Assembly (NCBI GenBank): GCA_037893245.1
Contig: JBAIAA010000603.1
Coordinates: 124,001-188,000 of the forward strand
Source: Crossaster papposus
Taxonomy: Eukaryota > Echinodermata > Asteroidea > Velatida > Solasteridae
Reading direction: 5' to 3'
DNA: 64,000 bases
A program made the translations under genes and the position numbers. Numbering within the stretch: the first letter of the stretch is position 1; each line of letters starts with the position of its first letter. Below the pieces are notes generated by a model. It was not told the DNA's origin and ran no database searches. It saw only the letters and a list, made by a program, of their open reading frames with translations. Below are positions 3,941 to 64,000 of the stretch, in pieces.

Positions 3941-4623
3941 AGATGGAATGGCAACCAACCTTACGAGTTCACCTATATACCCGAAGCAGCCTGGATATAG
4001 CGCAGGAACTTGCTGACACCCTCTGCTATTCAGTAGAAACAGGACTGGCACGAGAAGCCAGACACGAGGATTTAGCCAGGAGAGGCTAATGGTGAGACGC
4101 AGAATGAAATGGGATACTTCAGTGGGGATGGAGCGGCTCAGTTCTACATTGCAGCACATATTGTTAACTGCATGCGTGCGGATTGTCTCGGGCTCTTAAT
4201 TATCTAAATTGGAAGGTCAGTTTAAAACAAGGCTTGTAGGGCCAACAAGTTGGTAATAACTTTAAAGAAGACATGCAGTCGAACATCTTCATTACGCAAT
4301 TTTTTGTTTTAAATTAATAGATTTATGTGTATTAAATGTGAATAAGAAGCAAAGCTAGTTCTAGTGTACGTTTAGTGTGGTAATTTGCCGCCCAAAAAAT
4401 GAGCCCTCCCCCCCCCCCTTTTTTTTTTTTTTTTAAAGTTTCGCGGCCACTTAAAATGAGTGACGTAAACCGAAGCAGAACCCAGACAAATTTGCGATAG
4501 TCGGTACCCCACGTCTAGGTACGAGACGGGTTTGCGTGGATATGATTCGCGTACGCTTTGTGCACACACACGTAGATACACACAGTCGGCACACGCACGC
4601 TGTACAACGTAATCGAATTTAAC
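3941..4623. other. non-coding stretch
   Basis: No recognisable gene. It contains a C-then-T homopolymer run at 4409-4434. An 89-codon minus-strand frame covers 3890-4159 but has no family signature. Confidence 0.45.
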
Positions 4624-18067: not shown

Positions 18068-18993
18068 CGTTTCAGTGTAGATTTTAGTAACAGGTTCCTT
18101 CTGGGGCTGGGAATTAGATACCACAACACTAATTACAGATAAGCTAGCAATCTGTATCATAATCTTGATTTTCATTTTTTGCTACTTTATGCCCATTTCG
18201 TGGTAACAACATCAGGTCACATATATCATTTTAACTATTTTAGGGTAAAAAGATTACTAAGCAGCTCATCCACCAAGATCTTTTATCAGAGCAACGTGGT
18301 GCCTTGTTCTAAAATAATGGAAGATCAAGAAAGTCCAGCATCATCCACACGATGTCACTCTCCACCAGTGGGGTCAGACTCGACAAGTGACCCAGAAACA
18401 TCTTGTCCTATCGCCGATTGGATTTATCAAGTCGTGTTTCAAGAGCAAGAACGGCACTCCTCGTCAGCCGTCCATCTGTGCCTTTTCAAGAGCCAAGCTG
18501 ACGGCACTAAAAGAGGTCTTCCCCAATCAGGAGCATTCCGTCCAGGGTTTAAGCCAATTTTCCCACATTTGGTGAGTCTCAAGACAGTCAATATGTAGAT
18601 GTAGATGGTACCAAGGAAGTGTAGGATACTGTAGTTCTGAAGATGTTTTTAGATTCGGCCATCAGCCAGATTTGCATTTTCACAATAACTGTTTCTTCCC
18701 AATGGCACATTGTATATTCTAGCTAATTTTGAATGTTATCACACTAACAACTGACAGGTATGGGTGGGATCAAGTCAGCTAGTGAAACCATATATCAGGC
18801 CAAAAAAACCAAATAAATTAGTTTCTCATCCTCGCGCACATCCTTTTTTGCTGCTGCATCAAAACAATTTGTTTATATTTGTATTTGTTTCGCATCGTCA
18901 CTTTTCTCCCGATCTTAATTGTTCTCGTTTGCATTTTTTTTAGAAGAGTGAAGCCTTATTATTATCATATGACGCGACACTATACAGTGTGGC
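18068..18993. repeat. duplicated segment, copy 1 (TRMO 5' region)
   Basis: From CGTTTCAGTGTAGATTTTAG to CACTATACAGTGTGGC this segment matches 47259-48189 at high identity, with small indels, through upstream sequence, the TRMO-like exon and part of the following intron. Flanks differ, so the borders are sharp. Confidence 0.9.
18317..18571 (+). pseudogene. TRMO: TRMO-like exon (tRNA adenine-37 N6-methyltransferase), broken copy 1
   Basis: The ATG at 18317 opens MEDQESPASSTRCHSPP. Relative to the 47.5-kb copy, five bases are missing after the codons for SDSTSD (about 18391), shifting the frame. In the second frame it reads LSPIGFIKSCFKSKNGTPRQ, PSICAFSRAKLTALKEVF and HSVQGLSQFSHIW. These are the opening blocks of the TRMO/YaeB family, which methylates N6-threonylcarbamoyl-adenosine 37 of tRNA using S-adenosylmethionine. 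The exon ends in TG before GTGAGT (18572), splitting a Trp codon as in copy 2. No second exon follows; the duplication ends at 18993. It keeps Cys in PSIC where copy 2 has Trp. Confidence 0.85.
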
Positions 18994-22192: not shown

Positions 22193-22430
22193 CATGGGTG
22201 GCATGGGTGGCTTGTGTGTAAAGCGCTTGCCTCTCACCAATGTGGCCCGGGTTCGATTCCCGGCCCGGACCATATGTGAGTAGAGTTGTGCGTTGGTTAT
22301 CTCCTGTGCCACAAGGTTTTTTTCCAGGTCATCCGGTTTTCCTCCCTCCTGAAAAATCAAACACTTTCGATCTCAGGCTGTGCTCCATAGTCGTATATGA
22401 GTCAGTGTGGCCGGCTGCCGTAGGCACCTT
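22193..22430 (+). mobile_element. tRNA-derived SINE
   Basis: A head GGGTGGCTTGTGTGTAAAGC with GCTTGCCTC is followed by CCCGGGTTCGATTCCCGG (B box at 22250-22260). A non-tRNA body with TTTTCCTCCCTCC comes next. The same head, inverted, ends the spacer of the satellite array at 49.8-64 kb. Confidence 0.75.
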
Positions 22431-33369: not shown

Positions 33370-33655
33370 TTGATTTCGAAGGGGATTTTGACGAAAATTT
33401 TTAAAGGGGTATTCCAAAAGGGAATTCCAAAGGGGAATTCCGAAGGGGAATTCCAAGGGAAATTCCGAGGGAAATTTTGCTAGAATTTTATAGAGACCGC
33501 CTTGCTATAGAGACCGCATTGTAGTTGATATAAACATCTGTTTAATGTTGATTTTTAATTGATGTAGCTGTACTGAACATTATCCTAAGGGCCATCAGCG
33601 AGATCAAAGTGGCTGTTTAGTCCATCCAAAGTGAAGTAAAGGCCAATCCATATTC
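33370..33655 (+). repeat. inverted-repeat arm with short GGAATTCC minisatellite, left
   Basis: A few GGGGAATTCCRAAGG units (33410-33475) are followed by about 170 bp of unique sequence containing TATAGAGACCGC twice and CCTAAGGGCCATCAGCGAGA. The whole arm occurs inverted at 40450-40735 with very few differences. Confidence 0.9.
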
Positions 33656-37994: not shown

Positions 37995-38614
37995 AAGAAT
38001 ACCCCAACATCAGGGCGACACTTGTGGTATAAATCTCCCGCTATCGGTGAAGACGTAATCCCATACATGTACTTCACTTAGGAAGCCCACTGCCTAGATT
38101 TCCACACTTTATTTACCTTTGCTTTATATTGCTCGCTAAATGGTAATTAAACTCATAATTGTGGAGTGCCATGGCCTCGTGATCTGGAGCATTGAATTCG
38201 CAATCTGTGGGTAAAGCTACAGGTTGTGGGTTCGAGTCCGGCCTGGGGACTATGGTGCATAAGTGCCCTTGGGCGAAGCACTTTTTCGCTAATTCACACC
38301 TACCGGTACCCTGCAAGAATACCCCAACATCAGGGCGACACTGGTGGTATAAATCTCCCGCTATCGGTGAAGACGTAATCCCATACATGTACTTCACTTA
38401 GGAAGCCCGCTGCCTAGATTATTTCCACACTTTATTTACCTTTGCTTTATATTGCTCGCTAAATGGTAATTAAACTCATAATTGTGGAGTGCCATGGCCT
38501 CGTGATCTGGAGCATTGAATTCGCAATCTGTGGGTAAAGCTGCAGGTTGTGGGTTCGAGTCCGGCCTGGTGACTATGGTGCATAAGTGCCCTTGGGCGAA
38601 GCACTTTTTCGCTC
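37995..38614 (+). repeat. 320-bp tandem duplication including a SINE head
   Basis: AAGAATACCCCAACATCAGG starts at 37995 and again at 38315, and both copies run into the SINE head with GGTTCGAGTCC (38229-38239 and 38552-38562). Only the second SINE is complete, so the duplication followed SINE insertion. Confidence 0.9.
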
Positions 38615-38872
38615 ATTGCTTCTCTCCACCCAGGAGTAAATGGGTACCTGCCTGTGAGGGCGGAGATGGTTGTTATTAGCTGCTTTGTGCCGAAATGGCA
38701 GCATTGAGCTGTATACTCCCCAGGGAGCTGAGATTGTATTTGGAATGGGCCCAATGCACATCGGGGGATAATTACACAGTGCTTTGAGTATACTACATGT
38801 ACTAGTTCTGGTAGATATGTGCGCTATACAAAAAACCAGTATTACAGTATTATAATTATTATTATTTATTTG
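38485..38872 (+). mobile_element. tRNA-derived SINE, full length
   Basis: tRNA-like head (GCCATGGCCTCGTGATCTGG, B box GGTTCGAGTCC), a body with GTGCCCTTGGGCGAAGCACT and CCAGGAGTAAATGGGTACC, and a tail GTGCGCTATACAAAAAACC ending TTATTATTATT. A 5' half copy lies 323 bp upstream through tandem duplication. Confidence 0.85.
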
Positions 38873-40118: not shown

Positions 40119-40250
40119 TAAAGGGGGGGAGGGAGGGGGGGGGGGAGGGGGGGGGGGGGGAGGGGGGGGGGGGGGGGAGGGGGGGGGGGGAGGGGGGGGG
40201 GGAGGGGGGGGGAGGGTGGGGAGGGTGGGGGAGGGTGGGGGAGGGTGGTG
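40119..40250. repeat. poly-G / GGGA microsatellite
   Basis: Over 120 bases of G runs with single A or T. It is a strong G-quadruplex candidate, and frames across it are artefacts. Confidence 0.95.
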
Positions 40251-40449: not shown

Positions 40450-40735
40450 TCCTGTTGGCCTCTACTTCACTTTGGATGGACTAAACAGCCACTTTGATCT
40501 CGCTGATGGCCCTTAGGATAATGTTCAGTACAGCTACATCAATTAAAAATCAACATTAAACAGATTTTTATATCAACTACAATGCGGTCTCTATAACAAG
40601 GCGGTCTCTATAAAATTCTATCAAAATTCCCCTCGGAATTTCCCTTGGAATTCCCCTTCGGAATTTCCCTTTGGAATTCCCTTTTGGAATACCCCTTTAG
40701 AATTTTTTGTCAAAATCCCCTTCGAAATTCTCTTT
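40450..40735 (-). repeat. inverted-repeat arm, right
   Basis: Reverse complement of 33370-33655 with few differences (for example CTTGTTATAG for CTTGCTATAG). Its outer side merges into the long GGAATTC minisatellite. Confidence 0.9.
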
Positions 40736-42183
40736 GTATCCTCTATCAGGATGCTTCAGAATTCACTTTCGGAAGTCTTCTTCCCTTCGGAATTCCCCTT
40801 AGGAATTCTCCTTCGTAATTCTTTTTCAAAATCCTATTTGGAATCCTCCGTAAATATTTGGAATTCTCCTTCGGAATTCTTCTAAGGAATTCTTCTCCGA
40901 AATTTTCTTTTGAAATTCTTCTTAAAAAATTCTCCTTAAAAATTCTTATTCGCAAATCTCCGTCACAATTGTTCTTCGCAATTCTCCTTCGCAATTATTT
41001 TTCCAATATTCGTTGAAATCTTCTTAGAAATTATCCTTCAGAATTCTCCTTCGGAACAATTTTTTGGAATTGTTTTTCAAATTCTTCTTTGAAATGCTTA
41101 TTAAAAATCTTCAGAAATCTTCTTCAGAAATCGTTGGAGAACTTTCAACTTCTCCTTTGGAATTTTCTTGTGGAATTCTCCTTTGGAATTCTCTTCAGAA
41201 TTCTCTTCAGAATTCTCTTCAGAATTATCTTCAGAATTCTCCGTCAAATTTCCCTTATAAATTCCCCTTGGAATTTTCGCTTGGAAATTACCCTTCAAAA
41301 TTCCCCAATCTCCTTCGAAATTCTCCTTTAGAATTCTCTTCAGAATTCTCTTCAGAATTCTCCTTTGGAATTCCCCTTCGAAATCCTCTTTTGGAATTCT
41401 TCAGAATTCTCTTTCGGAAGTCTTCTTCCCTTCGGTAATTCCCCTTCGGAATTCCCCTTAGGAATTCCCCTTTGGAATTCCTCTTCGGAATTCCCCTTCG
41501 GAATTCCTCTTCGGAATTCCCCTTCGGAATTCCCCTTCGGAATTCCCCTTCAAAATCTTTTTTTTAAATCCCTCTTTGGAATCCTCTGTAAATATTTGGA
41601 ATTCTACTAAGGGATTCTCCTAAGGAATTAGTCTCCGGAATTCTCCTAAGGAATTCATCTTCGGAATTCATCTTCGGAATTCTCCTTAAAAATTCTTATT
41701 CGGAAATCTCCTTCCCAATTGTTCTTCGCAATTCTCCTTCGCAATCATTTTTCCATTATTCTTTCTTCTTCGGAATTCTTCTCAGGAATTCTTTGAAATC
41801 TTCTTAGAAATTCTCCTTCAAAATTCTCCTTCAAAATTCTCCTTCAAAATTATTTTTTGGGATTGATTTTTGATTTTCTTATTTGAAATCCTTATCAAAA
41901 TTATCTTCGGTATCCTTTGGAATTCTCTTTCGGAATTCTTCTTCAGAATTCTCGTTCGAAATTCTCCTTCGGAATTCCCCTTCAAAATTTTCCTTAAAAT
42001 TCCTCCTTCGGAATTCTTCGGAATTCTCTTTCGGAAGTCTTCTTCCCTTCGGAATTCCCCTTCGGAATTCCCCTTAGGAATTCTCCTTCGTAATTCTTTA
42101 TCAAAATCCTCTTTAGAATCCTCCGTAAATATTTGTAATTCTCCTTCGGAATTCTCCTAAGGAATTCATCTTCGGAATTCTCC
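40618..42183. repeat. GGAATTC-rich minisatellite, ~1.6 kb
   Basis: Irregular units of about 15-18 bp of the form TTCGGAATTCYCC, many with an EcoRI site. A larger period is visible: CTTTCGGAAGTCTTCTTCCC occurs near 40755, 41410 and 42030. The left arm at 33.4 kb holds only a few such units. Leu/Phe/Ser-rich frames here are not genes. Confidence 0.9.
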
Positions 42184-46399: not shown

Positions 46400-46829
46400 T
46401 GTTATTAGTATACCACCCTATACTACTAGCGTTATACCACCCTATACTAGTGTTATACCGCCCTAATACCGCGTTATACTGCCCTAATACCGCGTTATAC
46501 CGCCTTAATACCGCGTTATATATCGCCTTAATACCGCGCTTTATACCGCCCTAATACCGCGTTATACCGCCGTTATACCGCCCTAATACCGCGTTATACC
46601 GCCGTTATACCGCCCTAATACCGCGTTATAACGCCCTAAATACCGCGTTATAACGCCCTAAATACCGCGTTATAACGCCCTAAATACCGCGTTATAACGC
46701 CCTAAATACCGCGTTATAACGCCCTAAATACCGCGTTATAACGCCCTAAATACCGCGTTATAACGCCCTAAATACCGCGTTATAACGCCCTAAATACCGC
46801 GTTATAACGCCCTAAATACCGCGTTATAA
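46400..46829. repeat. 22-bp palindromic minisatellite
   Basis: The regular right half repeats TACCGCGTTATAACGCCCTA plus AA with a 22-bp period. The left half has shorter variants (TACCGCCCTAATACCGCGTTA). Each unit holds the perfect palindrome GCGTTATAACGC. Confidence 0.95.
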
Positions 46830-47258
46830 CATACATCACATGTTTAGTTTACGTTGTCAAAATCACGTTGACAGATTGCGACCTGATTGTCTAAGTTTAT
46901 TGCAGAAAATCTACTCATTTTGTATTTTCTTCCTCCATGCAGTTTGTCACACAATATTTAAAAAAACTAATAAGGCCTGTGTCAGGATGTGAATCTTCAA
47001 TTCTTGCAGATTAGTTCAGTTTAGTTTGCACTGCCTGTATCCAAATCAATGGTGGCCACACACGCTATTGAAGGGGAACTGACATTGCACCCTCTTCTGT
47101 TCTTTACTGTAGAACAAACTGATGAGATGGTGTATCTTGGTCAACAACTTGACATGTCATCAATAAAATGCCAATGTTTCAATTGGCAATTGTTGGTTTG
47201 TTTTATTTTGAACTGTTACAATTTCATGACATTTTAAACAAGTGGTAAGTTTCTTTTG
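46830..47258. other. non-coding stretch upstream of TRMO copy 2
   Basis: Short frames only, with no family recognised. Confidence 0.4.
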
Positions 47259-48189
47259 CGTTTCAGTGTAGATTTTAGTAACAGGTTCCTTCTGGGGCTG
47301 GGAATTAGATACCACAACACTAATTACAGCTAAGCTAGCAATCTGTATCATAATCTTGATTTTCAATTTTTGCTACTTTATGCCCATTTCGTGGTAACAA
47401 AATCAGGTCACATATATCATTTGAACTCTTTTAGGGTAAAAAGATTACTAAGCAGCTCATCCACCAAGATCTTTTATCAGAGCAACGTGGTGCCTTGTTC
47501 TAAAATAATGGAAGATCAAAAAAGTCCAGCATCATCCACACGATGTCACTCTCCACCAGTGGGGTCAGACTCGACAAGTGACATGAACCAGAAACATCTT
47601 GGCCTATCGCCGATTGGATTTATCAAGTCGTGTTTCAAGAGCAAGAACGGCACTCCTCGTCAGCCGTCCATCTGGGCCTTTTCAAGAGCCAAGCTGACGG
47701 TGCTAAAAGAGGTCTTCCCCAATCCGGAGCATTCCGTCCAGGGTTTAAGCCAATTTTCCCACGTTTGGTGAGTCTCAAGACAGTCACTATTTAGATGTAG
47801 ATGGTACCAAGGAAGTCTTTTCCAAGGTCCTCATACACTGTTAAGAGGGATACTGTAGTCAGCCAGCTTTGCATTTTCACAATAACTGTTTCTTCCCAAT
47901 GGCACATTGTATATTCTAGCTAATTTTGAATGTTATCACACTAACAACTGACAGGTATGGGTGGGATCAAGTCAGCTAGTGAAACCATATATCAGGCCAA
48001 AAAAAAAAAAAAATTAGTTTCTCATCCTCGCGCACATTCTTTTTTTGCTGCTGCATCAAAACAATTTGTTTATATTTGTATTTGTTTCGCATCGTCACTT
48101 TTCTCTCAATCTTAATAGTTCTCGTTTGCATTTTTTTAGAAGAGTGAAGCCTTATTATTATCATATGACGCGACACTATACAGTGTGGC
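47259..48189. repeat. duplicated segment, copy 2 (TRMO 5' region)
   Basis: Partner of 18068-18993, same orientation. The identity breaks at GTGTGGC on the right, a few bases before a MITE-like inverted repeat. Confidence 0.9.
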
Positions 48190-48918
48190 CCATAAAAACA
48201 AAAAAACATACTTCCACTACCCTGAGACCACAACTACCTTTTCCAGTGGATGGAGAATCTTTGTAGAAGAAAAAAGATACCAAATATCTTGATTTAGGCT
48301 AGTAGTTTTAGCACCACACCGTGTTTTGTAAAGCACAGTCGGGGGGTCTTTTCGCACCGAAATATAACTAGCTATTTACTTTACAAAATAGCGTCTGGAG
48401 CTAAAATTACTAGCCCAAATCAAGATATCTTGGTATCAGTTTTCTTGTAGAAAGATTCTCCATCCATTGGTATAGGTAGTTTTGGCCTCATGGAAGTGGA
48501 AGTATGCTTGTTCGTTGAGATATTATGCTTGTTGGCTTTTTTGGGGGCCACCCTGTGTAAGTTTCTCTATACAAACACATCAAGCCAACGTCAAGCTCCC
48601 CAAAAATGTCCCCATCTTCCGCTTTTAAAAATAGTTAGGACGAGAAACATTTTTTTATTTGGCCTAACAGACCAGTTTTCACTGGTTGCGATGAGTTACC
48701 ACTCAGCAATTCAGAATCAAGAACCATTGAGTTTTAGGTAAAATAAGTCTGGGACTTCACCAACTTCAATAATTGCGCCCCAAATTGTATGTGTAATTTG
48801 CAGGATACTATTCATCTTCCACAAGAATGGTGATGGGAGGTTCAACAAGGCCAAAGTGAAGCTGCCTCGTTTAGACGGAGCCAAGGTTGGGGTTTTTGCA
48901 AGCCGCAGTCCCCATTGA
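47508..48918 (+). pseudogene. TRMO: TRMO-like gene, two exons, ending in the satellite array
   Basis: Exon 1 (47508-47767) is open: MEDQKSPASSTRCHSPP, LGLSPIGFIKSCFKSKNG, TPRQPSIWAFSRAKLTVL, EHSVQGLSQFSHV and the first two bases of a Trp codon before GTGAGT. Exon 2 follows AG at 48802-48803, completes Trp and reads ILFIFHKNGDGRFNKAK, VKLPRLDGAKVGVF, ASRSPH, then TGA (48916-48918) where the family has Arg in SPHRPNPIG; after it PNPICLTLAKLDRIQG continues in frame and dissolves into the tandem array. The family makes N6-methyl-t6A37 in tRNA. The CGA-to-TGA change, Trp for Cys in PSIC, and the array instead of the remaining domain show it is not functional. An intact gene is expected elsewhere. 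An upstream exon may start after TTTTAG at about 47434 but its frame is unclear. Confidence 0.88.
48207..48506. mobile_element. foldback MITE in the TRMO intron
   Basis: The arms CATACTTCCACTACCCTGAG... and ...GGAAGTGGAAGTATG are inverted copies for about 105 bp each, including TGGATGGAGAATCTTTCTAC-like and ATATCTTGATTTRGGCTAGT blocks. The central ~90 bp is non-coding. It is absent from the first TRMO copy and lies just beyond the duplication border. TA stands next to both CTTCCAC ends, so a mariner-like origin is possible. Confidence 0.8.
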
Positions 48919-49820
48919 CCCAATCCTATCTGCCTGACCTTAGCCAAGCTGGATAGAATCCAAGGTATTCATAACCCCATCGACCCAATCCTATCGGCCT
49001 GACCTAGTAGCTAAGCTGGATAGAATCCAAGGTATTCATAACCCCATCGACCCAATCCTATCGACATGACCTAATAGCTAAGCTGGATAGAATCCAAGAT
49101 GTTCATATCCCCATCGACCCAATCCTATCGGCCTGACCTAATTGCCAAGTTGGATAGAATCCAAGGTATTATATCTCCATCGACCCAATCCTATCGGCCT
49201 GACCTTAGCCAAGTTAGGTATAATCCAAGGTATTCATATCTCCATCGATCAAATCCTATTGGCCTGACCTTAGGTAAGCTGGATATATTCCAAGGTATTC
49301 ATATCCCTATCGACCCAATCCTATCGACCTGATCTGATAGCTAAGCTGGATAGAATCCGCAGTATTCATATCCCTATCGACCCAATCCTATCGACCTGAC
49401 CTTAGCTATTATACTCCAAGGAATTCATATCCCCATGCGGCCCAATCCTATTGTCCTGACCTTAGCTATTAGAATCCAAGGTATTATATTCCCATCGACC
49501 CAGTCCTATCGGCCTGACCTTAGCTAAGCTGGATAGAATCCAAGGTATTCATATTCCCATCGACCCAATCCTACCGGCCTGACCTAATAGCTAAGCTGGA
49601 TAGAATCCAAGGTATTCATATCCCAATCGACCCAATCCTATCGGCCTGAGCTAATAGCTAAGCTGAATAGAATCAACGGTATTCATAACCCCATTGACCC
49701 AATCCTATCGGCCTGACCTAATAGCTAAGCTTGATAGAATCCAAGGTATTTATATTCCCATCGACCCAATCCTACCGGCCTGACCTAATAGCTAAGCTGG
49801 ATAGAATCCACGGTATTCAT

Positions 49821-50109
49821 ATAATAATAATAATTGGGGAGGCTAATCATCCTTACTCGCAGCTGGTGTGCTGAATTGCGAAGGATGCAAGTGACACCCA
49901 ATGACTTTTCATGTGTCGCGTCACATTACAGAACCATTTTTTCAAAAGAACCTAAAAACAAATGTAAACATTGGTTTTTATGTTGAGTATTTCCTAACGT
50001 TTCCAAAAATGTATAGTTTAGCAAATCTACACAAACAGTGAACGAAACTTTCAATATGTACATTATGAACCTGACTTGGAGGCAAGCGCTTTACACACAA
50101 GCCACCCAA
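49821..50109 (-). mobile_element. retroposon-like spacer in the array, first copy
   Basis: On the minus strand it begins GGGTGGCTTGTGTGTAAAGC, identical to the head of the SINE at 22193, and ends CCTCCCCAATTATTATTATT, an (ATT)n tail. The middle has no B box, so it is a diverged or chimeric SINE. It interrupts a monomer between GGTATTCATAT and CCAATCC. It recurs in every higher-order unit; unit starts (TATTCAT) are at 49814, 50159, 50763, 51238, 51715, 52321, 53190, 53803, 54284, 54891 and then every 606 bp. Confidence 0.75.
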
Positions 50110-53100
50110 CCCAATCCTATCGGCTTGATCTGTTAGCTAAGCTGGATAGAATCCAAGGTATTCATATAATAATAATAATAATTGGGGAGGCTAATCATCC
50201 TTACTCGCAGCTGGTGTGCTGAATTGCGAAGGATGCAAGTGACACCCAATGACTTTTCATGTGTCACGTAACATTAAAAAACCATTTTTTTCAAAAGAAC
50301 CTAAAAACAAATGTAAACATTGGTTTTTATGTTGAGTATTTCCTAACGTTTCCAAAAATGTATAGTTTAGCAAATCTTCACAAACAGTGAACGAAACTTT
50401 CAATATGTACATTATGAACCTGAGGCAAGCGCTTTACACACAAGCCACCCAACTCAATGCTATCGGGTTGATCTGTTAGCTAAGCTTGATAGAATCCAAG
50501 GTATTATATTCCCATCGACCCAGTCTTATCGGCCTGACCTTAGCTAAGCTTGATAGAATCCAAGGTATTCATAACCCCATCGACCCAATCCTACCGGCCT
50601 GACCTAATAGCTAAGCTGGATAGAATCCAAGGTATATCCCAATCGACCCAATCCTATCGGCCTGAGCTAATGGCTAAGCTGAATAGAATCAACGGTATTC
50701 ATAACCCCATTGACCCAATCCTATCGGCCTGACCTAATAGCTAAGCTGGATAGAATCCACGGTATTCATATAATAATAATAATTGGGGAGGCTAATCATC
50801 CTTACTCGCAGCTGGTGTGCTGAATTGCGAAGGATGCAAGTGACACCCAATGACTATTCATGTGTCACGTCACATTAAAGAACCATTTTTTCAAAAGAAC
50901 CTAAAAACAAATGTAAACATTGGTTTTTATGTTGAGTATTTCCTAACGTTTCCAAAAATGTATAGTTTAGCAAATCTACACAAACAGTGAACGACACTTT
51001 CAATATGTACATTATGAACCTGACTTGGAGGCAAAGGCTTTACACACAAGCAACCAACCCAATCCTATCGGCTTGATCTGTTAGCTAAGCTTGATAGAAT
51101 CCAAGGTATTATATTCCCATCGACCCAGTCCTATCGGCCTGACCTTAGCTAAGCTGGATAGAATCCAAGGTATTCATATTCCCATCGACCCAATCCTACC
51201 GGCCTGACCAAATAGCTAAGCTGGATAGAATCCACGGTATTCATATAATAATAATAATTGGGGAGGCTAATCATCCTTACTCGCAGCTGGTGTGCTGAAT
51301 TGCGAAGGATGCAAGTGACACCCAATGACTTTTCATGTGTCACGTCACATTAAAGAACCATTTTTTTCAAAAGAACCTAAAAACAAATGTAAACATTGGT
51401 TTTTATGTTGAGTATTTCCTAACGTTTTCAAAAATGTATAGTTTAGCAAATCTACACAAACAGTGAACGAAACTTTCAATATGTACATTATGAACCTGAC
51501 TTGGAGGCAAGCGCTTTACACACAAGCCACCCAACCCAATCCTATCGGCTTGATCTGTTAGCTAAGCTTGATAGAATCCAAGGTATTATATTCCCATCGA
51601 CCCAGTCCTATCGGCCTGACCTTAGCTAAGCTGGATAGAATCCAAGGTATTTATATTCCCATCGACCCAATCCTACCGGCCTGACCTAATAGCTAAGCTG
51701 GATAGAATCCACGGTATTCATATAATAATAATAATTGGGGAGGCTAATCATCCTTACTCGCAGCTGGTGTGCTGAATTGCGAAGGATGCAAGTGACACCC
51801 AATGACTTTTCATGTGTCACGTCACATTAAAGAACCATTTTTTCAAAAGAACCTAAAAACAAATGTAAACATTGGTTTTTATGTTGAGTATTTCCTAACG
51901 TTTCCAAAAATGTATAGTTTAGCAAATCTACACAAACAGTGAACGACACTTTCAATATGTACATTATGAACCTGACTTAGAGGCAAGGGCTTTACACACA
52001 AGCAACCCAACCCAATCCTATCGGCTTGATCTGTTAGCTAAGTTTGATAGAATCCAAGGTATTATATTCCCATCGACCCAGTCTTATCGGCCTGACCTTA
52101 GCTAAGCTTGATAGAATCCAAGGTATTCATAACCCCATCGACCCAATCCTACCGGCCTGACCTAATAGCTAAGCTGGATAGAATCCAAGGTATATCCCAA
52201 TCGACCCAATCCTATCGGCCTGAGCTAATGGCTAAGCTGAATAGAATCAACGGTATTCATAACCCCATTGACCCAATCCTATCGGCCTGACCTAATAGCT
52301 AAGCTGGATAGAATCCACGGTATTCATATAATAATAATAATTGGGGAGGCTAATCATCCTTACTCGCAGCTGGTGTGCTGAATTGCGAAGGATGCAAGTG
52401 ACACCCAATGACTTTTCATGTGTCGCGTCACATTACAGAACCATTTTTTCAAAAGAACCTAAAAACAAATGTAAACATCGGTTTTTATGTTGAGTATTTC
52501 CTAACGTTTCCAAAAATGTATAGTTTAGCAAATCTACACAAACAGTGAACGAAACTTTCAATATGTACATTATGAACCTTACTTAGAGGCAAAGGCTTTA
52601 CACACAAGCCACCCAACCCAATCCTATCGGCTTGATCTGTTAGCTAAGCTTGATAGAATCCAAGGTATTATATTCCCATCGACCCAGTCCTATCGGCCTG
52701 ACCTTAGCTAAGCTGGATAGAATCCAAGGTATTAATATTCCCATCGACCCAATCCTACCGGCCTGACCTAATAGCTAAGCTGGATAGAATCCAAGGTATA
52801 TCCCAATCGACCCAATCCTATCGGCCTGAGCTAATAGCTAAGCTGACTAGAATCAACGGTATTCATAACCCCATTGACCCAATCCTATCGGCCTGACCTA
52901 ATAGCTAAGCTTGATAGAATCCAATGTATTCATAACCCCATCGACCCAATCCTACCGGCCTGACCTAATAGCTAAGCTGGATAGAATCCAAGGTATATCC
53001 CATCGACCCAATCCTATCGGCCTGAGCTAATAGCTAAGCTGACTAGAATCAACGGTATTCATAACCCCATTGACCCAATCCTATCGGCCTGACCTAATAG

Positions 53101-55500
53101 CTAAGCTTGATAGAATCCAATGTATTCATAACCCCATCGACCCAATCCTACCGGCCTGACCTAATAGCTAAGCTGGATAGAATCAACGGTATTCATATAA
53201 TAATAATAATAATTGGGGAGGCTTAATCATCCTTACTCGCAGCTGGTGTGCTGAATTGCGAAGGATGCAAGTGACACCCAATGACTTTTCATGTGTCACG
53301 TCACATTAAAGAACCATTTTTTCAAAAGAACCTAAAATTAAATGTAAACATTGGTTTTTATGTTGATTATTTCCTAACGTTTCCAAAAATGTATAGTTAG
53401 CAAATCTACACAAACTGTGAACGAAACTTTCAATATGTACATTATGAACCTGACTTGGAGGCAAGCGCTTTACACACAAGCCACCCAACCCAATCCTATC
53501 GGCTTGATCTGTTAGCTAAGCTGGATAGAATCCAAGGTATTCATATTCCAATCGACCCAATCCTACGGCCTGACCTAATAGCTAAGCTGGATAGAATCCA
53601 AGGTATTATTCCCAATCGACCCAATCCTACCGGCCTTAGCTAATAGCTAAGCTGAATAGAATCAACGGTATTCATATCCCAATCGACCCAATCCTATCGG
53701 CCTGACCTAATAGCTAAGCTTGATAGAATCCATGGTTTTCATAACCCCATCGACCCAATCCTACCGGCCTGACCTAATAGCTAAGCTGGATAGAATCCAC
53801 GGTATTCATATAATAATAATAATAATTGGGGAGGCTAATCATCCTTACTCGCAGCTGGTGTGCTGAATTGCGAAGGATGCAAGTGACACCCAATGACTTT
53901 TCATGTGTCACGTCACATTAAAGAACCATTTTTTTCAAAAGAACCTAAAAACAAATGTAAACATTGGTTTTTATGTTGAGTATTTCCTAACGTTTCCAAA
54001 AATGTATAGTTTAGCAAATCTACACAAACAGTGAACGAAACTTTCAATATGTACATTATGAACCTGACTTAGAGGCAAAGCGCTTGACACACAAGCCACC
54101 CAACCCAATGCTATCGGCTTGATCTGTTAGCTAAGCTTGATAGAATCCAAGGTATTATATTCCCATCGACCCAGTCCTATCGGCCTGACCTTAGCTAAGC
54201 TGGATAGAATCCAAGGTATTTATATTCCCATCGACCCAATCCTACCGGCCTGACCTAATAGCTAAGCTGGATAGAATCCACGGTATTCATATAATAATAA
54301 TAATTGGGGAGGCTAATCATCCTTACTCGCAGCTGGTGTGCTGAATTGCGAAGGATGCAAGTGACACCCAATGACTTTTCATGTGTCACGTCACATTAAA
54401 GAACCATTTTTTTCAAAAGAACCTAAAAACAAATGTAAACATTGGTTTTTATGTTGAGTATTTCCTAACGTTTTCAAAAATGTATAGTTTAGCAAATCTA
54501 CACAAACAGTGAACGAAACTTTCAATATGTACATTATGAACCTTACTTGGAGGCAAAGGCTTTACACACAAGCCACCCAACCCAATCCTATCGGCTTGAT
54601 CTGTTAGCTAAGCTTGATAGAATCCAAGGTATTATATTCCCATCGACCCAGTCCTATCGGCCTGACCTTAGCTAAGTTGGATAGAATCCAAGGTATTTAT
54701 ATTCCCATCGACCCAATCCTACCGGCCTGACCTAATAGCTAAGCTGGATAGAATCCATGGAAAATCCCAATCGACCCAATCCTATCGGCCTGACCTAATA
54801 GCTAAGCTTGATAGAATCCATGGTTTTCATAACCCCATCGACCCAATCCTACCGGCCTGACCTAATAGCTAAGCTGGATAGAATCCACGGTATTCATATA
54901 ATAATAATAATTGGGGAGGCTAATCATCCTTACTCGCAGCTGGTGTGCTGAATTGCGAAGGATGCAAGTGACACCCAATGACTTTTCATGTGTCACGTCA
55001 CATTAAAGAACCATTTTTTCAAAAGAACCTAAAAACAAATGTAAACATACATTGGTTTTTATGTTGAGTATTTCCTAACGTTTCCAAAAATGTATAGTTT
55101 AGCAAATCTACACAAACAGTGAACGAAACTTTCAATATGTACATTATGAACCTTACTTGGAGGCAAAGGCTTTACACACAAGCCACCCAACCCAATCCTA
55201 TCGGCTTGATCTGTTAGCTAAGCTTGATAGAATCCAAGGTATTATATTCCCATCGACCCAGTCCTATCGGCCTGACCTTAGCTAAGTTGGATAGAATCCA
55301 AGGTATTTATATTCCCATCGACCCAATCCTACCGGCCTGACCTAATAGCTAAGCTGGATAGAATCCATGGAAAATCCCAATCGACCCAATCCTATCGGCC
55401 TGACCTAATAGCTAAGCTTGATAGAATCCATGGTTTTCATAACCCCATCGACCCAATCCTACCGGCCTGACCTAATAGCTAAGCTGGATAGAATCCACGG

Positions 55501-58500
55501 TATTCATATAATAATAATAATTGGGGAGGCTAATCATCCTTACTCGCAGCTGGTGTGCTGAATTGCGAAGGATGCAAGTGACACCCAATGACTTTTCATG
55601 TGTCACGTCACATTAAAGAACCATTTTTTCAAAAGAACCTAAAAACAAATGTAAACATTGGTTTTTATGTTGAGTATTTCCTAACGTTTCCAAAAATGTA
55701 TAGTTTAGCAAATCTACACAAACAGTGAACGAAACTTTCAATATGTACATTATGAACCTTACTTGGAGGCAAAGGCTTTACACACAAGCCACCCAACCCA
55801 ATCCTATCGGCTTGATCTGTTAGCTAAGCTTGATAGAATCCAAGGTATTATATTCCCATCGACCCAGTCCTATCGGCCTGACCTTAGCTAAGTTGGATAG
55901 AATCCAAGGTATTTATATTCCCATCGACCCAATCCTACCGGCCTGACCTAATAGCTAAGCTGGATAGAATCCATGGAAAATCCCAATCGACCCAATCCTA
56001 TCGGCCTGACCTAATAGCTAAGCTTGATAGAATCCATGGTTTTCATAACCCCATCGACCCAATCCTACCGGCCTGACCTAATAGCTAAGCTGGATAGAAT
56101 CCACGGTATTCATATAATAATAATAATTGGGGAGGCTAATCATCCTTACTCGCAGCTGGTGTGCTGAATTGCGAAGGATGCAAGTGACACCCAATGACTT
56201 TTCATGTGTCACGTCACATTAAAGAACCATTTTTTCAAAAGAACCTAAAAACAAATGTAAACATTGGTTTTTATGTTGAGTATTTCCTAACGTTTCCAAA
56301 AATGTATAGTTTAGCAAATCTACACAAACAGTGAACGAAACTTTCAATATGTACATTATGAACCTTACTTGGAGGCAAAGGCTTTACACACAAGCCACCC
56401 AACCCAATCCTATCGGCTTGATCTGTTAGCTAAGCTTGATAGAATCCAAGGTATTATATTCCCATCGACCCAGTCCTATCGGCCTGACCTTAGCTAAGTT
56501 GGATAGAATCCAAGGTATTTATATTCCCATCGACCCAATCCTACCGGCCTGACCTAATAGCTAAGCTGGATAGAATCCATGGAAAATCCCAATCGACCCA
56601 ATCCTATCGGCCTGACCTAATAGCTAAGCTTGATAGAATCCATGGTTTTCATAACCCCATCGACCCAATCCTACCGGCCTGACCTAATAGCTAAGCTGGA
56701 TAGAATCCACGGTATTCATATAATAATAATAATTGGGGAGGCTAATCATCCTTACTCGCAGCTGGTGTGCTGAATTGCGAAGGATGCAAGTGACACCCAA
56801 TGACTTTTCATGTGTCACGTCACATTAAAGAACCATTTTTTCAAAAGAACCTAAAAACAAATGTAAACATTGGTTTTTATGTTGAGTATTTCCTAACGTT
56901 TCCAAAAATGTATAGTTTAGCAAATCTACACAAACAGTGAACGAAACTTTCAATATGTACATTATGAACCTTACTTGGAGGCAAAGGCTTTACACACAAG
57001 CCACCCAACCCAATCCTATCGGCTTGATCTGTTAGCTAAGCTTGATAGAATCCAAGGTATTATATTCCCATCGACCCAGTCCTATCGGCCTGACCTTAGC
57101 TAAGTTGGATAGAATCCAAGGTATTTATATTCCCATCGACCCAATCCTACCGGCCTGACCTAATAGCTAAGCTGGATAGAATCCATGGAAAATCCCAATC
57201 GACCCAATCCTATCGGCCTGACCTAATAGCTAAGCTTGATAGAATCCATGGTTTTCATAACCCCATCGACCCAATCCTACCGGCCTGACCTAATAGCTAA
57301 GCTGGATAGAATCCACGGTATTCATATAATAATAATAATTGGGGAGGCTAATCATCCTTACTCGCAGCTGGTGTGCTGAATTGCGAAGGATGCAAGTGAC
57401 ACCCAATGACTTTTCATGTGTCACGTCACATTAAAGAACCATTTTTTCAAAAGAACCTAAAAACAAATGTAAACATTGGTTTTTATGTTGAGTATTTCCT
57501 AACGTTTCCAAAAATGTATAGTTTAGCAAATCTACACAAACAGTGAACGAAACTTTCAATATGTACATTATGAACCTTACTTGGAGGCAAAGGCTTTACA
57601 CACAAGCCACCCAACCCAATCCTATCGGCTTGATCTGTTAGCTAAGCTTGATAGAATCCAAGGTATTATATTCCCATCGACCCAGTCCTATCGGCCTGAC
57701 CTTAGCTAAGTTGGATAGAATCCAAGGTATTTATATTCCCATCGACCCAATCCTACCGGCCTGACCTAATAGCTAAGCTGGATAGAATCCATGGAAAATC
57801 CCAATCGACCCAATCCTATCGGCCTGACCTAATAGCTAAGCTTGATAGAATCCATGGTTTTCATAACCCCATCGACCCAATCCTACCGGCCTGACCTAAT
57901 AGCTAAGCTGGATAGAATCCACGGTATTCATATAATAATAATAATTGGGGAGGCTAATCATCCTTACTCGCAGCTGGTGTGCTGAATTGCGAAGGATGCA
58001 AGTGACACCCAATGACTTTTCATGTGTCACGTCACATTAAAGAACCATTTTTTCAAAAGAACCTAAAAACAAATGTAAACATTGGTTTTTATGTTGAGTA
58101 TTTCCTAACGTTTCCAAAAATGTATAGTTTAGCAAATCTACACAAACAGTGAACGAAACTTTCAATATGTACATTATGAACCTTACTTGGAGGCAAAGGC
58201 TTTACACACAAGCCACCCAACCCAATCCTATCGGCTTGATCTGTTAGCTAAGCTTGATAGAATCCAAGGTATTATATTCCCATCGACCCAGTCCTATCGG
58301 CCTGACCTTAGCTAAGTTGGATAGAATCCAAGGTATTTATATTCCCATCGACCCAATCCTACCGGCCTGACCTAATAGCTAAGCTGGATAGAATCCATGG
58401 AAAATCCCAATCGACCCAATCCTATCGGCCTGACCTAATAGCTAAGCTTGATAGAATCCATGGTTTTCATAACCCCATCGACCCAATCCTACCGGCCTGA

Positions 58501-61500
58501 CCTAATAGCTAAGCTGGATAGAATCCACGGTATTCATATAATAATAATAATTGGGGAGGCTAATCATCCTTACTCGCAGCTGGTGTGCTGAATTGCGAAG
58601 GATGCAAGTGACACCCAATGACTTTTCATGTGTCACGTCACATTAAAGAACCATTTTTTCAAAAGAACCTAAAAACAAATGTAAACATTGGTTTTTATGT
58701 TGAGTATTTCCTAACGTTTCCAAAAATGTATAGTTTAGCAAATCTACACAAACAGTGAACGAAACTTTCAATATGTACATTATGAACCTTACTTGGAGGC
58801 AAAGGCTTTACACACAAGCCACCCAACCCAATCCTATCGGCTTGATCTGTTAGCTAAGCTTGATAGAATCCAAGGTATTATATTCCCATCGACCCAGTCC
58901 TATCGGCCTGACCTTAGCTAAGTTGGATAGAATCCAAGGTATTTATATTCCCATCGACCCAATCCTACCGGCCTGACCTAATAGCTAAGCTGGATAGAAT
59001 CCATGGAAAATCCCAATCGACCCAATCCTATCGGCCTGACCTAATAGCTAAGCTTGATAGAATCCATGGTTTTCATAACCCCATCGACCCAATCCTACCG
59101 GCCTGACCTAATAGCTAAGCTGGATAGAATCCACGGTATTCATATAATAATAATAATTGGGGAGGCTAATCATCCTTACTCGCAGCTGGTGTGCTGAATT
59201 GCGAAGGATGCAAGTGACACCCAATGACTTTTCATGTGTCACGTCACATTAAAGAACCATTTTTTCAAAAGAACCTAAAAACAAATGTAAACATTGGTTT
59301 TTATGTTGAGTATTTCCTAACGTTTCCAAAAATGTATAGTTTAGCAAATCTACACAAACAGTGAACGAAACTTTCAATATGTACATTATGAACCTTACTT
59401 GGAGGCAAAGGCTTTACACACAAGCCACCCAACCCAATCCTATCGGCTTGATCTGTTAGCTAAGCTTGATAGAATCCAAGGTATTATATTCCCATCGACC
59501 CAGTCCTATCGGCCTGACCTTAGCTAAGTTGGATAGAATCCAAGGTATTTATATTCCCATCGACCCAATCCTACCGGCCTGACCTAATAGCTAAGCTGGA
59601 TAGAATCCATGGAAAATCCCAATCGACCCAATCCTATCGGCCTGACCTAATAGCTAAGCTTGATAGAATCCATGGTTTTCATAACCCCATCGACCCAATC
59701 CTACCGGCCTGACCTAATAGCTAAGCTGGATAGAATCCACGGTATTCATATAATAATAATAATTGGGGAGGCTAATCATCCTTACTCGCAGCTGGTGTGC
59801 TGAATTGCGAAGGATGCAAGTGACACCCAATGACTTTTCATGTGTCACGTCACATTAAAGAACCATTTTTTCAAAAGAACCTAAAAACAAATGTAAACAT
59901 TGGTTTTTATGTTGAGTATTTCCTAACGTTTCCAAAAATGTATAGTTTAGCAAATCTACACAAACAGTGAACGAAACTTTCAATATGTACATTATGAACC
60001 TTACTTGGAGGCAAAGGCTTTACACACAAGCCACCCAACCCAATCCTATCGGCTTGATCTGTTAGCTAAGCTTGATAGAATCCAAGGTATTATATTCCCA
60101 TCGACCCAGTCCTATCGGCCTGACCTTAGCTAAGTTGGATAGAATCCAAGGTATTTATATTCCCATCGACCCAATCCTACCGGCCTGACCTAATAGCTAA
60201 GCTGGATAGAATCCATGGAAAATCCCAATCGACCCAATCCTATCGGCCTGACCTAATAGCTAAGCTTGATAGAATCCATGGTTTTCATAACCCCATCGAC
60301 CCAATCCTACCGGCCTGACCTAATAGCTAAGCTGGATAGAATCCACGGTATTCATATAATAATAATAATTGGGGAGGCTAATCATCCTTACTCGCAGCTG
60401 GTGTGCTGAATTGCGAAGGATGCAAGTGACACCCAATGACTTTTCATGTGTCACGTCACATTAAAGAACCATTTTTTCAAAAGAACCTAAAAACAAATGT
60501 AAACATTGGTTTTTATGTTGAGTATTTCCTAACGTTTCCAAAAATGTATAGTTTAGCAAATCTACACAAACAGTGAACGAAACTTTCAATATGTACATTA
60601 TGAACCTTACTTGGAGGCAAAGGCTTTACACACAAGCCACCCAACCCAATCCTATCGGCTTGATCTGTTAGCTAAGCTTGATAGAATCCAAGGTATTATA
60701 TTCCCATCGACCCAGTCCTATCGGCCTGACCTTAGCTAAGTTGGATAGAATCCAAGGTATTTATATTCCCATCGACCCAATCCTACCGGCCTGACCTAAT
60801 AGCTAAGCTGGATAGAATCCATGGAAAATCCCAATCGACCCAATCCTATCGGCCTGACCTAATAGCTAAGCTTGATAGAATCCATGGTTTTCATAACCCC
60901 ATCGACCCAATCCTACCGGCCTGACCTAATAGCTAAGCTGGATAGAATCCACGGTATTCATATAATAATAATAATTGGGGAGGCTAATCATCCTTACTCG
61001 CAGCTGGTGTGCTGAATTGCGAAGGATGCAAGTGACACCCAATGACTTTTCATGTGTCACGTCACATTAAAGAACCATTTTTTCAAAAGAACCTAAAAAC
61101 AAATGTAAACATTGGTTTTTATGTTGAGTATTTCCTAACGTTTCCAAAAATGTATAGTTTAGCAAATCTACACAAACAGTGAACGAAACTTTCAATATGT
61201 ACATTATGAACCTTACTTGGAGGCAAAGGCTTTACACACAAGCCACCCAACCCAATCCTATCGGCTTGATCTGTTAGCTAAGCTTGATAGAATCCAAGGT
61301 ATTATATTCCCATCGACCCAGTCCTATCGGCCTGACCTTAGCTAAGTTGGATAGAATCCAAGGTATTTATATTCCCATCGACCCAATCCTACCGGCCTGA
61401 CCTAATAGCTAAGCTGGATAGAATCCATGGAAAATCCCAATCGACCCAATCCTATCGGCCTGACCTAATAGCTAAGCTTGATAGAATCCATGGTTTTCAT

Positions 61501-63984
61501 AACCCCATCGACCCAATCCTACCGGCCTGACCTAATAGCTAAGCTGGATAGAATCCACGGTATTCATATAATAATAATAATTGGGGAGGCTAATCATCCT
61601 TACTCGCAGCTGGTGTGCTGAATTGCGAAGGATGCAAGTGACACCCAATGACTTTTCATGTGTCACGTCACATTAAAGAACCATTTTTTCAAAAGAACCT
61701 AAAAACAAATGTAAACATTGGTTTTTATGTTGAGTATTTCCTAACGTTTCCAAAAATGTATAGTTTAGCAAATCTACACAAACAGTGAACGAAACTTTCA
61801 ATATGTACATTATGAACCTTACTTGGAGGCAAAGGCTTTACACACAAGCCACCCAACCCAATCCTATCGGCTTGATCTGTTAGCTAAGCTTGATAGAATC
61901 CAAGGTATTATATTCCCATCGACCCAGTCCTATCGGCCTGACCTTAGCTAAGTTGGATAGAATCCAAGGTATTTATATTCCCATCGACCCAATCCTACCG
62001 GCCTGACCTAATAGCTAAGCTGGATAGAATCCATGGAAAATCCCAATCGACCCAATCCTATCGGCCTGACCTAATAGCTAAGCTTGATAGAATCCATGGT
62101 TTTCATAACCCCATCGACCCAATCCTACCGGCCTGACCTAATAGCTAAGCTGGATAGAATCCACGGTATTCATATAATAATAATAATTGGGGAGGCTAAT
62201 CATCCTTACTCGCAGCTGGTGTGCTGAATTGCGAAGGATGCAAGTGACACCCAATGACTTTTCATGTGTCACGTCACATTAAAGAACCATTTTTTCAAAA
62301 GAACCTAAAAACAAATGTAAACATTGGTTTTTATGTTGAGTATTTCCTAACGTTTCCAAAAATGTATAGTTTAGCAAATCTACACAAACAGTGAACGAAA
62401 CTTTCAATATGTACATTATGAACCTTACTTGGAGGCAAAGGCTTTACACACAAGCCACCCAACCCAATCCTATCGGCTTGATCTGTTAGCTAAGCTTGAT
62501 AGAATCCAAGGTATTATATTCCCATCGACCCAGTCCTATCGGCCTGACCTTAGCTAAGTTGGATAGAATCCAAGGTATTTATATTCCCATCGACCCAATC
62601 CTACCGGCCTGACCTAATAGCTAAGCTGGATAGAATCCATGGAAAATCCCAATCGACCCAATCCTATCGGCCTGACCTAATAGCTAAGCTTGATAGAATC
62701 CATGGTTTTCATAACCCCATCGACCCAATCCTACCGGCCTGACCTAATAGCTAAGCTGGATAGAATCCACGGTATTCATATAATAATAATAATTGGGGAG
62801 GCTAATCATCCTTACTCGCAGCTGGTGTGCTGAATTGCGAAGGATGCAAGTGACACCCAATGACTTTTCATGTGTCACGTCACATTAAAGAACCATTTTT
62901 TCAAAAGAACCTAAAAACAAATGTAAACATTGGTTTTTATGTTGAGTATTTCCTAACGTTTCCAAAAATGTATAGTTTAGCAAATCTACACAAACAGTGA
63001 ACGAAACTTTCAATATGTACATTATGAACCTTACTTGGAGGCAAAGGCTTTACACACAAGCCACCCAACCCAATCCTATCGGCTTGATCTGTTAGCTAAG
63101 CTTGATAGAATCCAAGGTATTATATTCCCATCGACCCAGTCCTATCGGCCTGACCTTAGCTAAGTTGGATAGAATCCAAGGTATTTATATTCCCATCGAC
63201 CCAATCCTACCGGCCTGACCTAATAGCTAAGCTGGATAGAATCCATGGAAAATCCCAATCGACCCAATCCTATCGGCCTGACCTAATAGCTAAGCTTGAT
63301 AGAATCCATGGTTTTCATAACCCCATCGACCCAATCCTACCGGCCTGACCTAATAGCTAAGCTGGATAGAATCCACGGTATTCATATAATAATAATAATT
63401 GGGGAGGCTAATCATCCTTACTCGCAGCTGGTGTGCTGAATTGCGAAGGATGCAAGTGACACCCAATGACTTTTCATGTGTCACGTCACATTAAAGAACC
63501 ATTTTTTCAAAAGAACCTAAAAACAAATGTAAACATTGGTTTTTATGTTGAGTATTTCCTAACGTTTCCAAAAATGTATAGTTTAGCAAATCTACACAAA
63601 CAGTGAACGAAACTTTCAATATGTACATTATGAACCTTACTTGGAGGCAAAGGCTTTACACACAAGCCACCCAACCCAATCCTATCGGCTTGATCTGTTA
63701 GCTAAGCTTGATAGAATCCAAGGTATTATATTCCCATCGACCCAGTCCTATCGGCCTGACCTTAGCTAAGTTGGATAGAATCCAAGGTATTTATATTCCC
63801 ATCGACCCAATCCTACCGGCCTGACCTAATAGCTAAGCTGGATAGAATCCATGGAAAATCCCAATCGACCCAATCCTATCGGCCTGACCTAATAGCTAAG
63901 CTTGATAGAATCCATGGTTTTCATAACCCCATCGACCCAATCCTACCGGCCTGACCTAATAGCTAAGCTGGATAGAATCCACGG
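55501..63984 (+). repeat. 14 consecutive 606-bp higher-order units
   Basis: Each unit is one spacer (~290 bp) plus five monomers, two of them with the distinctive CCATGGAAAATCCC and CCATGGTTTTCATAACC joints. Starts are 606 bp apart from 55501 to 63985. Rows compared 6,060 bp apart are letter-for-letter the same. The two units before (54284, 54891) differ only by one and four inserted bases in the spacer and by internal monomer content. Confidence 0.95.
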
Positions 63985-64000
63985 TATTCATATAATAATA

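Follow-up and report, generated by a model that had tools for sequence, protein, structure and literature searches.

In this study, we analyzed a 64,000-bp stretch of the Crossaster papposus assembly (contig C603, positions 124001–188000, hereafter the window), together with the whole assembly of 1.02 Gb in 1841 contigs. The window contains part of a satellite that very probably arose from the junction between exon 2 and intron 2 of a functional TRMO gene, that is mostly non-coding, and whose intact parent and intronic starter array survive in the same assembly. The repeat forms long head-to-tail arrays of a short unit, is mostly non-coding, and has a homogenized higher-order structure, the features for which we call it a satellite. 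For human TRMO, m6t6A methyltransferase activity is reported (PMC4132733).

The array in the window is preceded on the forward strand by a piece of TRMO, and such gene pieces are called headers here. It comprises the coding part of exon 1 (47508–47767), which is open, intron 1 (47768–48803), which has GT...AG borders and aligns in pieces to the genes on contigs C217 and C162 described below, and a broken copy of exon 2 (48804–48964). Both exons were delimited by translation and border checks, followed by a TrmO_N match for exon 1 and an alignment to Protein Data Bank (PDB) entries for exon 2, and together they encode the N-terminal half of TRMO (MEDQKSPASS...FSHVW/ILFIFHKNGDGRFNKAKVKLPRLDGAKVGVFASRSPH, a stop, then PNPICLTLAKLDRIQ). 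The part before the stop revealed the Pfam domain TrmO_N (E 1.2e-15, 58.1 bits, cut-off 26.8), and exons 1–2 matched the TrmO structures 7btu (E 2.8e-19), 1xqb (E 2.7e-16), and 2nv4, in all of which the HRPN-IG stretch was aligned. Exon 2 passes in frame into the first monomer at 48910 (...GVFASRSPH, the stop, and PNPICLTLAKLDRIQ, followed by GT). Thus, two claims of a preliminary description made from the letters alone, namely the TRMO identity and the continuity of the array with exon 2, were borne out. Its further claim that the founding gene is still joined to the window array had to be given up. At 48916–48918, an in-frame TGA stands where both intact genes have CGA (Arg), and at 48931–48933 TGC (Cys) stands for their GGC (Gly), both changes being common to the same 11 of 14 aligned header copies. 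Compared with the C217 gene, exons 1–2 of the window copy displayed 3 synonymous and 6 non-synonymous differences in addition to the stop, and the TGA leaves it without a complete open reading frame. Among the 46 matches listed, exon 3 was found solely on C217 and C162 and not on C603. Because of the TGA in exon 2 and the exon 3 not found, the window copy was rejected as founder; it is, judged by its sequence, a broken 5′ half-gene, one of at least 42 exon 2 copies other than the two intact genes, and the founder type lies on C217 and C162.

In regard to the repeat unit, the monomer joins the 3′-terminal 55 nt of TRMO exon 2 to about 10 nt of intron 2, including the donor AAG/GTATTC. In the first monomer (48910–48974, forward strand, 65 bp), the exon 2 part is 55 nt long and the intron 2 part 10 nt, and the donor GT lies at 48965. 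Since the monomer takes in these roughly 10 intronic bases, the putative seed is the exon–intron junction and not the exon alone; the birth from a TRMO exon proposed earlier therefore stands as to exon 2 and was extended across its border. Most monomers measured 65–67 bp, while forms of 58–60 bp also occurred, and Tandem Repeats Finder (TRF) reported 67-bp units starting at 48909. The in-frame TRMO motif that the preliminary description had read after SPH in an approximately 65-bp monomer is real, and both intact genes carry an exact HRPNPIGLTLAKLDRIQG in their first monomer; the window's own first monomer carries the TGA and the Gly-to-Cys change.

Mapping of the intact gene and a genome-wide count of the monomer had both been proposed in that description, and both could be performed. 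On C217 and C162, exons joined by hand at the splice sites resulted in complete four-exon TRMO open frames of 390 and 393 amino acids, respectively, with TrmO_N over its full length in both (4e-42, 143.4 and 143.6 bits, profile positions 1–116 of 116). The two genes differ by a synonymous divergence (dS) of 0.083 and a non-synonymous divergence (dN) of 0.023, and by 10 synonymous and 3 non-synonymous differences in exons 1–2, which suggests that they are under purifying selection. In both genes, intron 2 opens directly from exon 2 with a short monomer array, comprising 21 anchored monomers in C217 and 12 in C162, and both arrays terminate at the identical sequence ATGCTAATTAGCTGAG. In C162, an insertion of about 2.5 kb with 598-bp inverted repeats (90.8% identity) splits the array (L010:3384–5953). 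An intact gene of the C217/C162 kind with a short intron 2 array very probably represents the founder type. The downstream flank of C217 is also present at C162 in the same order at 88–91%, and this collinear flank ruled out that the two are unrelated paralogs.

The proximal part of the window array (48910–49822, forward strand) is irregular, contains 14 monomers without insert, and is collinear with the intron 2 array of the intact gene. When these 14 monomers were aligned as units to the 21 of C217, the score was 77 compared to a shuffle mean of 102.8, and 1 of 2000 shuffles scored as low. Distinctive monomers correspond in order, namely the first, second, and third, a 60-bp CATGCGG form, and a 58/59-bp form. 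In a midpoint-rooted tree built on exonic and intronic pieces of 16 copies, all 14 headers formed one clade (98/96) nearest to C217, with identities of 96.7–97.6% between headers and C217, 94.2–94.9% between headers and C162, and 95.7% between C217 and C162. Since the root lies at the midpoint, the order of the three lineages is suggested rather than proven. Among the 14 aligned headers, 11 belong to an A type with TGA and Cys and 3 to a frameshifted B type, and insert-bearing arrays are present in copies of both types. All 14 of the exon 2 copies that were read besides the intact genes are broken and then run into the satellite.

From 49823 onward, the array changes its character. The preliminary description had seen a simple array of approximately 65-bp monomers; the monomers are there, but it had missed a non-TRMO insert of about 280 bp parting the monomer groups and a 606-bp higher-order unit. 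Its estimate of more than 15 kb proved sound, as the higher-order array (49823–64000, forward strand) extends beyond the window to about C603:225180, giving 52,272 bp (52.3 kb) in all on this contig with 85 inserts. The 84 insert-to-insert units ranged from 348 to 1485 bp, with 606 bp in 60 and 611 bp in 10 of them, and one identical 606-bp sequence accounted for 33. From 55467 to 64000, the forward-strand units are fully homogenized with 100% identity at lag 606, and over the whole contig unit lengths become more variable towards both array ends.

The first insert copy (49823–50104) lies on the minus strand and has an ATT-rich tail ending in ATT repeats. Its minus-strand head is identical over 26 bp to window positions 22208–22233 (E 8e-8), where the identity ends. 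By eye, window positions 22195–22400 resemble a tRNA-derived short interspersed nuclear element (SINE) with a GGTTCGATTCC box and A and B boxes, and it is the head that is common to the insert. A 28-mer of the insert head was found at 1039 places in the genome (backwards-read control 0), and 33 of the first 100 places listed were on contigs on which no satellite was seen. ARAGORN and Rfam reported no tRNA or other feature for the window, the insert itself gave no tRNA match, and its two Rfam matches (E 5.4 and 8.4) were at chance level, so that the name SINE-headed refers to appearance and dispersal only. The insert is absent from the intron 2 arrays of both intact genes; a search of the gene loci with the insert resulted in a sole match of 30 bp (83%, E 0.006) to its tail, located outside the array (L009:8565).

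Genome-wide, TRMO exon 1 was detected at at least 55 places and exon 2 at at least 44, as counted among the 136 matches listed, so that at least 42 exon 2 copies exist besides the two intact genes. Header and array recur on 15 contigs, which are unplaced. TRMO copies on multi-copy contigs share one orientation, e.g., on C351, where six headers follow each other at a spacing of 85–180 kb. A degenerate monomer pattern (34 places) was used only for listing satellite contigs. Over this and other searches, at least 18 contigs were seen with satellite, C217 and C162 included, and 17 of these 18 also carried TRMO exons among the matches listed. An exact monomer 22-mer occurred at 4012 places and an exact insert 21-mer at 4284, while the backwards-read controls gave 0. 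In 126,883 bp of sampled array, each of these two words was found 155 times. Scaling from the counts gives an estimated total of about 3.3 Mb (monomer word) and 3.5 Mb (insert word) of satellite, a rough figure because the sample is biased towards headers and the 22-mer is absent from the homogenized unit. One exact monomer 24-mer was tried against viral contigs and was not found there.

Four other explanations were weighed against a birth from the TRMO junction. An assembler could have inflated a modest intronic minisatellite into long perfect arrays, and the perfect identity at lag 606 from 55467 with one 606-bp sequence present 33 times would fit such an artefact. However, variants of 611, 607, 409, and 816 bp break the identical units irregularly, headers with private differences lie on many contigs, and insert and monomer counts run into the thousands. 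We therefore regard an artefact as highly improbable, and the exact array copy number in the assembly may be wrong. Slightly less probable still is a coding array whose monomers would serve as exons for a repetitive peptide, in the manner of exon-repeat genes. In its favor are a donor-like CCAAGGTAT kept in many monomers (180 exact occurrences in the C603 array) and the reading HRPSPIGLTLAKLDRIQG in 77 of 425 monomers. Against it, 336 of the 425 monomers on C603 contain a stop within the 15 codons that were read starting at the anchor and only 89 are free of stops, the 67-bp form shifts the frame, the 280-bp insert interrupts, and a crude acceptor pattern (a pyrimidine run followed by YAG) was not found in one 606-bp unit. 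On these grounds, the coding repeat was rejected; the peptide reading is mostly a fossil and the satellite mostly non-coding.

A satellite older than the gene, with TRMO captured by it or inserted into it and the exon reading coincidental, is scarcely credible. The satellite is indeed far more abundant than the gene, and contig C821, taken up below, would suit such an origin. However, in its exonic part the monomer encodes residues of the TrmO motif, and these could be aligned with TrmO-family proteins of bacteria and archaea whose structures are solved; moreover, the first monomer is needed as coding exon in both intact genes. Chance similarity is excluded, because the C217 exon end finds at best 30 of 55 bases in window positions 1–48800 on either strand, compared with 87 positions at 45 or more of 55 in the 52-kb C603 array. 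It is just as far-fetched that the window copy still functions, is the true founder, and has its exon 3 on the far side of the array. Its exon 1 and the greater part of its exon 2 are undamaged, but besides the stop, the Gly-to-Cys change, the substitutions, and the missing exon 3 match given above, the 2.8 kb following the array showed no match to the C217 gene region or to the window.

Several points weigh against the origin proposed here. In the intact genes, TrmO_C (E 9.7e-6 and 4.4e-5 for C217 and C162, respectively) reached 26.1 and 24.0 bits with a Pfam cut-off of 27.1. As the C217 flank recurs at C162 in the same order at 88–91%, the two loci are either haplotypes or the outcome of a recent duplication. 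In the unit alignment, several monomers of the window had two or more equally good partners in C217. A three-lineage tree without an outgroup does not tell whether the C217/C162 split or the header duplication came first, so that their order rests on distances. Furthermore, 14 of the 42 broken exon 2 copies were read, the estimate of total size was scaled up from 127 kb of array sampled mostly near headers, C821 carries the satellite but no TRMO exon among the matches listed, and the amplification mechanism was inferred and not observed.

For the birth from the TRMO junction, we propose the following course. First, the terminal 55 nt of exon 2 together with the initial approximately 10 nt of intron 2 would have been tandemly repeated inside intron 2 of the intact gene, where the two genes still carry such arrays. 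Since the first copy still forms the coding end of the exon and supplies the first splice donor, splicing should remove the array from the transcript, and the array would be free to expand. Secondly, the 5′ half of the gene and the array were presumably copied elsewhere without exons 3–4, and the reading frame was lost; no coding constraint would therefore be left, and unequal exchange could homogenize and enlarge the array. Thirdly, the SINE-headed element of about 280 bp, which sits in the copied arrays and not in the gene's own, would have joined. Monomers and insert were then probably amplified, by unequal exchange or a rolling-circle-type process, into homogenized higher-order repeats, with 606 bp the commonest length on C603. 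Finally, header and array would have spread to the 15 contigs. The satellite likely has no role beyond that of a structural, selfishly spreading repeat.

The window header has retained TRMO 5′ sequence: the flank or 5′ untranslated region at 47083–47507 (forward strand) was copied along with it, as seen from a 440-bp alignment to the C217 gene (93.2%), and shorter matches reach back to about 45954. Because at least 425 bp of this flank are retained, transcription from it into the arrays is possible. If the flanks are promoters, the satellite might bring along a gene promoter at as many as 42 of its heads; its RNA would then consist of runaway TRMO transcripts, and its exon-bearing monomers could feed small RNAs targeting the living TRMO gene. 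We consider this unlikely; if true, it would couple satellite copy number to a tRNA-modification enzyme. Just upstream of the header, about 17 copies of a 22-bp minisatellite (GTTATAACGCCCTAAATACCGC) occupy 46452–46830, with matches upstream of several other headers.

How satellites are born is an old open question, since in most cases the founder has been lost. In the present case, the intact gene, the starter array in its intron, the half-genes, the insert, and the homogenized end product all lie in one assembly, so that the steps can be ordered by sequence, and the case would appear to be an unusually complete record of satellite birth. It points to the possibility that an enzyme exon under constraint gives rise to a satellite when the duplicated piece spans the splice donor, since further copies then land in the intron and escape selection. 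From this follows a rule, open to testing, on the places at which such satellites may be born. Macrosatellites with genes inside (D4Z4/DUX4, RS447/USP17) and exon repeats (NBPF/Olduvai) are similar in carrying gene pieces in long tandem higher-order arrays; however, they have a coding unit in each repeat that may stay open, whereas the unit here is a 65-bp exon border and most copies are closed. Satellites from 5S or tRNA genes are also derived from a gene locus. The same applies to rRNA intergenic-spacer satellites, as described in the available part of PMC5615363. Unlike all of these RNA genes, which are already multicopy sources, TRMO encodes a protein and was found in two intact copies in this assembly.

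An origin of satellites from transposable elements is described in the accessible portions of two reviews (PMC9659126, PMC12628747). As in those cases, a short piece of a longer functional element was tandemized and spread, and a SINE-headed insert takes part, but the monomer stems from a conserved exon of an enzyme gene and the adjoining intron border and not from a mobile element. Taken together, the available parts of PMC5615363, PMC12628747, PMC6947457, and PMC9659126 cover transposon and ribosomal DNA (rDNA) spacer origins and do not name a conserved enzyme exon as a source. Likewise, no satellite derived from an exon or coding gene was noticed among the matches listed in openly licensed literature on exon- or gene-derived satellites, on echinoderm satellites, and on TrmO. 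In the Drosophila simulans clade, Y-linked exon duplications lie beside functional Y genes, together with amplified gene families (PMC8794474, accessible part). These share with our case the many partial, often dead copies and the extra exons beside a functional gene; as far as that text goes, they differ in that their units are exons or genes, whereas ours is a 65-bp junction repeat whose higher-order unit bears an insert.

Apart from the array, further features were identified. A second TRMO fragment (18068–18993, forward strand) contains exon 1 and the 5′ part of intron 1 only, is frameshifted by a 5-bp deletion, and shows 94.2% identity to 47259–48189. Comparable exon 1 places recur about 29–37 kb from A-type headers on several contigs, which suggests that they are part of a larger repeated block. 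Intron 1 of the window header contains a palindromic element (48189–48560, no strand assigned) that matches itself in both orientations, is also present in both intact genes, and was labeled by us as similar to a miniature inverted-repeat transposable element (MITE-like). Inverted 274-bp repeats (33373–33646 and 40455–40728, 96.7%), both overlapped or flanked by 13-bp AATTCC-type minisatellites, are possibly the ends of an element of about 7.3 kb. A long degenerate 13-bp minisatellite of the GGAATTCCCCTTC type extends over 40784–42183, a 123-bp G-rich tract over 40123–40245, and a 323-bp tandem duplication (97% identical) over 37995–38617. Two long open frames of 386 and 247 amino acids (6342–8184) perhaps belong to a transposon or a domesticated gene. 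The mitochondrial COX1 on C1841, translated with several genetic codes, seems to read correctly with code 9 (AAA as Asn, ATA as Ile), which is indicative of an echinoderm. Elsewhere in the assembly, a 682-amino-acid open frame with a match to COX1 (C8:5208663–5210009) lies on a contig of more than 5 Mb, which is perhaps that of a bacterial symbiont or a contaminant.

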